The notes under the pieces are model-generated. The model had not been told where the DNA came from and ran no database searches. It saw only the letters and a list, made by a program, of their open reading frames with translations. DNA of 64,000 nt, from contig SUVL01000003.1 of NCBI GenBank assembly GCA_015062005.1, forward strand, positions 1-64,000, written 5' to 3'. Shown one piece after another: positions 3,981 to 6,071 of this stretch (positions are counted from its first letter, which is position 1; every line of letters begins with the position of its first letter). The translations under genes were made by a program, and so were the position numbers. Source of the stretch: Akkermansiaceae bacterium. GTDB lineage: Bacteria > Verrucomicrobiota > Verrucomicrobiia > Verrucomicrobiales > Akkermansiaceae.

Positions 3981-5360
3981 TTATTCCTCATCGAAATCCG
4001 GTTCCTCCGCACCATCGGCGAAGAGCTCGTAGGCTATGGAATCCACAATTTCCACCTCGGCAAACTCGCCAACGGGGAGAGCCGGATCCACATGGATGGT
4101 GCCATCCACATCCGGGGCATCCCAGGGGCCGCGGGCAATGCCGGGAGCATCCACCAGCACACGCATGCGGGAACCGATGCTCTCCTGCCCGATTTCATCA
4201 GCAATGCCGGCCAGCAGCATGGAAAGCTCGTTGCTGCGGCGCTTCCTGGTGGCGTGGTGTACCTGGTTCTTCATTTTTGCTGCGAGGGAACCTTCCTCCC
4301 TGGAATAAGGGAAGACCCCGGCACGCTCGAAACGGAACTCCTTGATGAACTCACGCAGCTCTGCATGGTCTTCTTCCGTTTCTCCCGGCAGACCGGATAT
4401 GAAGGTAGTGCGCAGGCCGATACCGGGCACCGCTGCGCGAATATCGCGGATGAGGTTTCGGATGTAGTCGCCATCCGTCTTGCGGCGCATGGAATCCAGG
4501 ATACCGTCTGCAATGTGCTGCAGGGGGATATCCACATATTTCACCACCTTCTCGCACTGGGCAAAGGTCTCGATGAGCTCCCGGCTCCAGTGGGCGGGAT
4601 GGGTGTAAAGCACGCGTATCCAGAAATCGCCGGGGATGGCATTTATCTCGCGCAGCAGGCTGGCAAGCGATTCACCGCGGGAGGAATCCACCCCGTCGGT
4701 CTTGCTGCCGCGCTTCTCCCACTTGTCCATGCCATAGTAGGTGGTATCCTGGGCAATGAGGTTGATTTCCCTGGCGCCCTGCGCCACCCAGTGGCGCACT
4801 TCCTTGAGGATATTGGCCTGCGGCCGGCTGCGGTGCCCACCGCGAATGCGAGGAATCACGCAGTAGGCACAGGCGTGGTTGCACCCCTCGGCAATCTTCA
4901 CATAGGCATAGTGCGGCGGCGAAATCAGCTTGCGAGGCACGCCCCAGTCCGGCAGGTAGGTGGAAACCTTGCTCGTGTAGGTCTTCTCTGCCGAGCCGTT
5001 CAGGCAGGCAGAGGCAATCTCCGCCACCCGGGTGATTTCATCCACCCCCATGAAACAGCTTACCTCCGGCATCTCTTTGACCAGCTCCTTCGCATAGCGC
5101 TGGGAGAGGCAACCAGCCACGATGATATGCTGCTCCGCCGGGGCTTCCCCCGCCTCGCGGGCGCGTACGGCATCAAAAATGGTGTTAATCGCCTCCTCCT
5201 TGGCGGGGTCAATAAAACCGCAGGTGTTGATGATGAGCACATCGGCCTCCCCCGGCTCCACCTGGCGGAATCCGGCCGCCACCATGCAGCCGGTCATGTG
5301 TTCGGAATCCACCTGATTCTTGGCACAACCCAGGGAAATAAGAGCGAAGGATGCATTCAT
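3981..5360 (-). CDS. rimO: Ribosomal protein uS12 methylthiotransferase RimO
   Basis: MNASFALISLGCAKNQVDSEHM; INTCGFI; radical SAM EGCNHACAYCVIPRIRGGHRSR; TRAM-like C-terminus; start trimmed from 5408 to 5360. Confidence 0.93.
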   Translation of the reverse strand: MNASFALISLGCAKNQVDSEHMTGCMVAAGFRQVEPGEADVLIINTCGFIDPAKEEAINTIFDAVRAREAGEAPAEQHIIVAGCLSQRYAKELVKEMPEVSCFMGVDEITRVAEIASACLNGSAEKTYTSKVSTYLPDWGVPRKLISPPHYAYVKIAEGCNHACAYCVIPRIRGGHRSRPQANILKEVRHWVAQGAREINLIAQDTTYYGMDKWEKRGSKTDGVDSSRGESLASLLREINAIPGDFWIRVLYTHPAHWSRELIETFAQCEKVVKYVDIPLQHIADGILDSMRRKTDGDYIRNLIRDIRAAVPGIGLRTTFISGLPGETEEDHAELREFIKEFRFERAGVFPYSREEGSLAAKMKNQVHHATRKRRSNELSMLLAGIADEIGQESIGSRMRVLVDAPGIARGPWDAPDVDGTIHVDPALPVGEFAEVEIVDSIAYELFADGAEEPDFDEE

Positions 5361-5403
5361 GCGCGCATTATACCCGCGAGCCGCCCCGTAAGCAAGCAAA
5401 ATG

Positions 5404-5844
5404 GGCATTTGGCGAGCCGCAGGCGAGTCAAATGCCTATCCCTCATGCGCTAGCATGAGGGATTTCATACATGCCACAGGCATGTATTTCATGCACTGCG
5501 ATAGCAGTGCTTTCATACCGCTGCGAGCAGCGGTATTTACATACTTGCGATAGCAAGTATTTCATTGAGCGAAGCGACTAGTTACCGCTGCATCAGCAGC
5601 GGTACTGCCATTTTCGCAATATATTGGCCATAAGCGTGCAATGGGATACATAAAGCATATAATTTTTCCCAGGGAAGGCTAATTTATTATGCGACCGCCC
5701 ATTGGATGTACCGCTGCTAATGCAGCGGTAACTAGTCGCTTCGCTCAATGAATTACACCGGCAAAGCCGGTGTATGTAAATACCGCCTGCGGCGGTATGA
5801 AAGCGGCACTATGTGCCGCATGGCTCTGGCGTATACGCCAGAGC
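5404..5844. repeat. Mirror-symmetric array of about 12 short perfect hairpins around a 44-bp inverted repeat
   Basis: Hairpins at 5404-5436, 5440-5461, 5467-5487, 5493-5510, 5515-5536, 5541-5560, 5583-5604 | 5709-5730, 5754-5774, 5780-5798, 5803-5819, 5823-5844; 5561-5604 is the reverse complement of 5709-5752 with one mismatch. Confidence 0.95.
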
Positions 5845-5874
5845 TGCAAATTCCAATAACGGGGGGGGGAAAGG

Positions 5875-5939: not shown

Positions 5940-6071
5940 TTAGTCCTTGGAAATCTTCTTAGCCATCTGAACAGGCGCAGTGTTCTTGCTGTTCTTGGCG
6001 ATTTCCTTCTGGCGCTTGATGTAAGCGGTGCGGCGGCGACGCTTCGTCTCCTTACGATGTTGTTGACCCAT
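5940..6071 (-). CDS. Small basic protein (43 aa), probably ribosome or nucleic-acid associated
   Basis: MGQQHRKETKRRRRTAYIKRQKEIAKNSKNTAPVQMAKKISKD; highly basic; internal start in ORF 5940-6200. Confidence 0.65.
   Translation of the reverse strand: MGQQHRKETKRRRRTAYIKRQKEIAKNSKNTAPVQMAKKISKD

Follow-up and report, generated by a model that had tools for sequence, protein, structure and literature searches.

The gap between a rimO-like open reading frame (positions 3981-5408, minus strand) and a 43-codon basic one (about 5940-6071, minus strand), two same-strand genes named here from a reading of their translations, holds an array of short hairpins, and the question is what this array represents and what keeps its hairpins in shape. 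The window, i.e., the whole stretch of 64,000 nucleotides under analysis, belongs to an Akkermansia (Verrucomicrobiota) genome and encodes a RuvC with 98% identity to the protein of a water-deer Akkermansia MAG. The preliminary description had found identical spacers and differing, fully complementary stems in the two arms of the array, had called this covariation within one locus, and had suggested that stem formation and spacers, not stem sequence, are kept, with a process at work that makes new perfect palindromes. All the hairpins and spacers quoted in it were found within 5438-5844. According to our reading, to which we assign a probability of about 0.7, we are dealing with a mobile fold-back element whose complete relatives have an IVP gene between inverted arms, the array being a non-autonomous copy that lacks this gene.

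Layout of the array and its dispersed copies

As delimited by alignment with the other copies in the genome, the whole element (arm A, core and arm B) extends over positions 5401..5859. The distal hairpin of arm A (GGCATTTGGCGAGCC/GGCGAGTCAAATGCC) occupies 5401..5439 and is followed, on the minus strand, by H5 (ATCCCTCATGC, 5438..5463), H4 (ATACATGCC, 5467..5487), H3 (GCACTGC, 5493..5510), H2 (ATACCGCTGC, 5515..5536) and H1 (ATACTTGC, 5541..5560), by the linker ACTAGTCGCTTCGCTCAATGAA with its variable slot GTC[GCTTCGC]TCAATGAA (5561..5582), and by the innermost hairpin H0 (TACCGCTGC, 5583..5604). The 104-nt core (5605..5708), which gave no IVP match, is enclosed by a perfect inverted repeat, beyond which the inverted arm B runs on the plus strand through H0 (TACCGCTGC, 5709..5730), the linker ACTAGTCGCTTCGCTCAATGAA (5731..5752), H1 (TACACCGGC, 5754..5774), H4 (ATACCGCC, 5780..5798), H5 (GCGGCAC, 5803..5819) and H6 (GCTCTGGCGTA, 5823..5844) to CAAATTCCAATAA (5847..5859), the distal end common to other copies. 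The folding energy of the array region lies far below that of shuffled sequences (z = -22 as DNA and -20 as RNA); according to the fold predictions, the two arms are paired in their inner parts, and the outer hairpins fold locally. Elsewhere in the window, the translation of an open reading frame at 657-1115 resembles a fragment of an insertion-sequence transposase.

The linker occurs 22 times in the genome (at most 3 mismatches), in most cases forming inverted pairs at a distance of about 170 bp, and approximately 12-13 dispersed loci display the common plan (arm A, linker, H0, 104-nt core, H0, linker, arm B) or a truncated version of it. A unique regulatory locus is ruled out by these roughly 13 copies. 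Arm A carries the same hairpins H1 to H5 across copies, while the complete arm B of other copies is ordered H1-TGTAA-H2-GAAA-H3-ATGAA-H4-GAAA-H5-ATG-H6, with ATACCACAGC as H2, GCGTAGC as H3 and the remaining hairpins as in the window. Arm B has lost H2 and H3 (50 nt; deletion site at 5775..5779) in the window copy and in copy C44, and H1 and H2 in copies C33 and C34; since they are missing as blocks, hairpins are lost as whole units. The second and third hairpins of arm B in the window are consequently H4 and H5, which the preliminary description had set against H2 and H3 of arm A, so that only H1 was compared in register. Its slot-by-slot comparison nevertheless holds in substance, as the full-length arms do match in spacers and differ in stems.

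At G000:C24:20000-26500, five copies of H0 plus linker lie in the same direction within 4.4 kb; two of them enclose a Y1 transposase-like gene, and arms of another type (with tatcg spacers) are present on the opposite side.

Empty sites, element ends and the IVP gene

Comparison with related genomes revealed at least six element-occupied sites that are empty in some relative: the C44 site in G036, G044 and G010 (in G059 it carries a different insert), C34 and C27 in G038, C12 in G059, G036, G063 and G044, and C10, C27 and C33 in G059. Judged by these orthologous sites, the element is mobile, or recently was. The insertion junctions were mostly blurred by intergenic divergence, the closest relative examined being about 90-95% identical there, and the flanks of copy C33, judged against one empty site, show a possible 6-bp duplication (TGTTTC). 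For the window copy itself no empty counterpart was met, as the gap between the rimO-like gene and the 43-codon frame was not found in the relatives' loci; because each of these two genes has other neighbours in G059, the copy lies at a synteny break or rearrangement point.

Some copies reach out to CACACGTGTCCCAAAG...CTTTGGGACACGTGTG ends, and 8-9 bp duplications stand at the outer ends of full-length copies; copy C9, with CATTTTTT on both sides, has both inverted ends and the target duplication. The CACACGTGTCCCAAAG end, of which the genome contains 111 instances (at most 2 mismatches), bounds short elements, many of them with 8-9 bp duplications; in the stretches inspected, no transposase with such ends was found. 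The interiors of these short elements vary, comprising heptamer arrays, hairpin arrays and other palindromes. It may be that a miniature transposon with CACACGTGTCCCAAAG ends, producing target duplications of 8-9 bp, carried some copies of the array along as it spread. This route leaves the window copy unexplained, since it has no CACACGTGTCCCAAAG end, and neither terminal inverted repeats nor a target duplication were found at it.

The relation to a protein-coding element is indicated by locus C42 of the same genome, where arms of the window type (76-88% identical to those of the window by alignment) border a 118-codon gene matching PF05635 (23S_rRNA_IVP, E = 4e-14), with clpB-like and guaA-like neighbours. 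In G038, G044, G036 and G012 this site holds orthologues whose stems have changed; the close genomes G036 and G012 agree fully in one arm and differ in the other, each hairpin of which has been replaced. G027 has arms at the orthologous site and gave no significant IVP match there, while G010 retains a 35-residue IVP remnant between such arms. Because arms in the same genome border an IVP gene and the G027 site keeps its arms without one, the window copy is taken as a gene-less derivative. No IVP (PF05635) sequence was found in its core, and the idea that the 104-nt core arose from inner ends of IVP elements was rejected, their similarity being weak (z about 2) and some other cores being more similar. 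Between G000:C42 and G038:C51, which occupy the same site, the IVP gene is flipped and the arms stay in place, suggesting that the gene was inverted by recombination between the arms.

This genome contains nine PF05635 genes. Inverted flanks, i.e., flanks whose inverted similarity to each other exceeded all shuffles and the 99th percentile of a positional control, were detected at 57 of 66 scored PF05635 loci from six phyla, where the genus loci include orthologues and the positional control was drawn from intergenic and other sites alike. By set, they were present at 8 of 9 loci in this genome, 18 of 20 elsewhere in the genus, 23 of 29 in the phylum and all 8 plasmid loci (six genera; Spirochaetota, Cyanobacteriota, Bacteroidota, Bacillota, Chloroflexota). 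In several phyla the inverted-repeat borders of PF05635 genes are often arrays of short units, and several loci outside the genus have arrays of short direct repeats. Some PF05635 genes have defence or restriction genes on both sides (DISARM/BREX in Planktothrix, hsdS/hsdR in Monoglobus) or, in Nostoc, adjoin XisH/XisI.

Variation of stems, spacers and loops

Ninety distinct related arms were parsed into 340 hairpins (3.8 per arm on average), 307 of them perfect, and each of the slots H1 to H5 held 26-31 different stems; among 400 random 160-nt stretches, 382 were without a single such hairpin. Positions differ across the arms in 2% of cases in spacers, 10% in stems (many of these changes being two-sided) and 28% in loops. 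In the anchored slot GTC[stem]TCAATGAA, analysed as distinct variants with loops removed by hand and by a statistic that ignores relatedness, the covariation score was 0.414 as compared to 0.129 (sd 0.039) after shuffling and 0.06-0.15 when the slot was slid, and the two-sided cells numbered 16 versus 5.5, none of 500 shuffles being as high on either measure. Hairpin structure is maintained across the arms, be it through selection or through templated correction. The preliminary description was right that stems covary, as the statistical test confirmed, although they do so across related arms; the contrast within the locus is one between two arms whose stems recur in identical form at many further loci of the genome. 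Uncompensated stem forms, which it had named as contrary evidence, do occur in part (GACCC..GGGCC, GCCCCGC..GCGGTGC), the spacers being nonetheless conserved.

Close copies give a different picture of the stems. Young copies keep the same stems, and the distinct events amounted to 18 in 238 stem sites, 19 in 47 loop sites and 36 in 104 core sites, the stems thus changing more slowly than the core (p = 2e-9). The stem events were mostly one-sided, with two compensated changes among them, so the stems are not freely regenerated. The 33-nt hairpin at the distal end of arm A offers two clean cases of the opposite kind: relative to the consensus GGAATTTG..CAAATTCC, the window (GGCATTTG..CAAATGCC) and C43 (GGACTTTG..CAAAGTCC) copies have a single pair changed each, with full compensation; no one-sided variants of this hairpin were present among the copies listed, in a search the pattern of which would miss some variants. 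These two-sided changes hint at templated copying between the halves of the hairpin.

It is conceivable, at rather less than even odds, that such copying accounts for the palindromes altogether, i.e., that, along the lines suggested by the preliminary description, a template switch inside the hairpin during replication copies one half from the other, turning a mutation into a perfect two-sided change without any selection, and that the structure is a mutational by-product. The two separate two-sided changes of the distal hairpin in near-identical copies, and the two further compensated ones among close copies, speak for this explanation. On the other hand, correction alone predicts about half of the stem changes to be two-sided, whereas those observed were mostly one-sided; it also has to face the slower change of stems relative to core and loops, and it leaves the class of the loops and the conservation of the spacers unexplained. 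Accordingly, several proposals of the preliminary description need to be narrowed. Spacers are indeed the most conserved part and stems show many two-sided changes, but stems change slowly among close copies; a palindrome-making process is supported by the two compensated pairs of the distal hairpin, against the majority of one-sided changes; and changes of stems as units are represented by the loss of whole hairpins and the replacement of a whole arm, single stem changes being mostly one-sided.

Of 374 loops of 3-4 nt, 267 belong to the GNA/GNNA class when read on the inward-running strand and 12 when read on the opposite one, and two G-C closing pairs were found in 247. GNRA, the tetraloop class favoured in RNA, accounts for 17 of 83 inward tetraloops. 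Loops of GNA or GNNA type with at least two G-C pairs form extraordinarily stable DNA mini-hairpins (PMC4686876). Considering that the loops are mostly GNA/GNNA and rarely GNRA, we lean to single-stranded DNA rather than RNA as the form in which the hairpins most likely act. A host role at the RNA level, such as mRNA stabilisation, termination or RNase III processing between neighbouring genes, with the dispersal being incidental, agrees with the position of the window copy between two same-strand genes, with the strong predicted RNA fold and with the cutting of the rRNA intervening sequence (IVS) by RNase III (PMC4990558); we consider it unlikely in view of the rarity of GNRA loops, the location of copies at differing, often species-specific sites, and the lack of any Rfam family match in the window at gathering score, by which a known RNA family is ruled out.

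The proposed element and its relation to known systems

Returning to the mobile fold-back element, we infer its mechanism of mobility and its function as follows. Complete relatives would consist of two inverted arms around a 23S_rRNA_IVP (S23, four-helix-bundle) gene, the arms of the window copy enclosing no more than the 104-nt core. Each stem would be kept as a small, highly stable hairpin with a GNA/GNNA loop closed by G-C pairs, and the spacers would be kept by pairing between the arms in the fold-back or by the binding of a protein, possibly IVP. Stems would drift by single changes compensated later, some perhaps being copied half-to-half within the hairpin, and whole hairpins would be lost or exchanged as units. 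A fold-back would need the spacers to match between the arms and the stems to match only themselves, and so would fit the pattern reported.

The closest known counterpart is the 23S rRNA IVS with an S23/IVP frame of Leptospira and Coxiella, which resembles the C42 element in having a four-helix-bundle gene between complementary ends (PMC4990558). In Coxiella, heptamer repeats precede the S23 frame and the IVS with its complementary ends is excised by RNase III, and a mobile origin of IVS was proposed by earlier authors (PMC4990558). The window copy shares the inverted complementary borders; in contrast to IVS, which lie inside 23S rRNA, the Akkermansia copies are located between protein genes (the window copy in the gap between the rimO-like gene and the 43-codon frame), their borders are arrays of hairpins or heptamers, and the S23/IVP gene is present in the C42 element and missing from the window copy. 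Many dispersed gene-less copies with empty orthologous sites liken the window-type element to a MITE, and some copies have inverted-repeat ends with 8-9 bp duplications, unlike the window copy; the interior, however, is a hairpin array common to gene-bearing elements. Inverted arrays also flank IVP genes on plasmids of Nostoc, Planktothrix and Euhalothece, as in the cyanobacterial heptamer arrays next to four-helix-bundle genes, the units there being short direct repeats and those of Akkermansia hairpins.

To our knowledge, Y1 transposition makes no 8-9 bp duplications. A REP/REPIN-like system, in which the hairpins are recognised in trans by a Y1 (TnpA-REP) transposase, is therefore very improbable in the face of such duplications at the outer ends of full-length copies and of the examined Y1 genes being flanked by their own, different repeats, even though the hairpins are dispersed and intergenic with conserved spacers, and five Y1 transposase genes are present in the genome, one of them between the C24 arrays. 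For the same mismatch between these flanking repeats and the element palindromes, Y1/RAYT was rejected as the cognate enzyme. With REP, BIME and REPIN elements and their RAYT transposases (PMC3733652, PMC3116915), the likeness lies in intergenic palindromes, conserved linkers and modular arrangement, whereas here the stems vary strongly, the arms border IVP genes and the Y1 genes examined have other flanking repeats.

A full-text search of open-licence literature returned no description of free-standing IVP elements with inverted hairpin arrays or of their gene-less relatives. As a tentative and rather doubtful extension, free-standing IVP/S23 (four-helix-bundle) genes across bacteria might supply the coding portion of a single, widely distributed class of mobile elements, whose hallmark would be inverted arrays of short units (heptamers or mini-hairpins); the IVP protein would act on such arrays as single-stranded DNA or RNA, and half-to-half copying would give rise to new perfect hairpins. 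The consistent inverted-array border renders the mobile-element reading of the widespread IVP/S23/four-helix-bundle family outside rRNA testable, the arms offer a natural series of hairpins for separating selection on structure from templated hairpin correction, and the class of the loops points to single-stranded DNA, not RNA.
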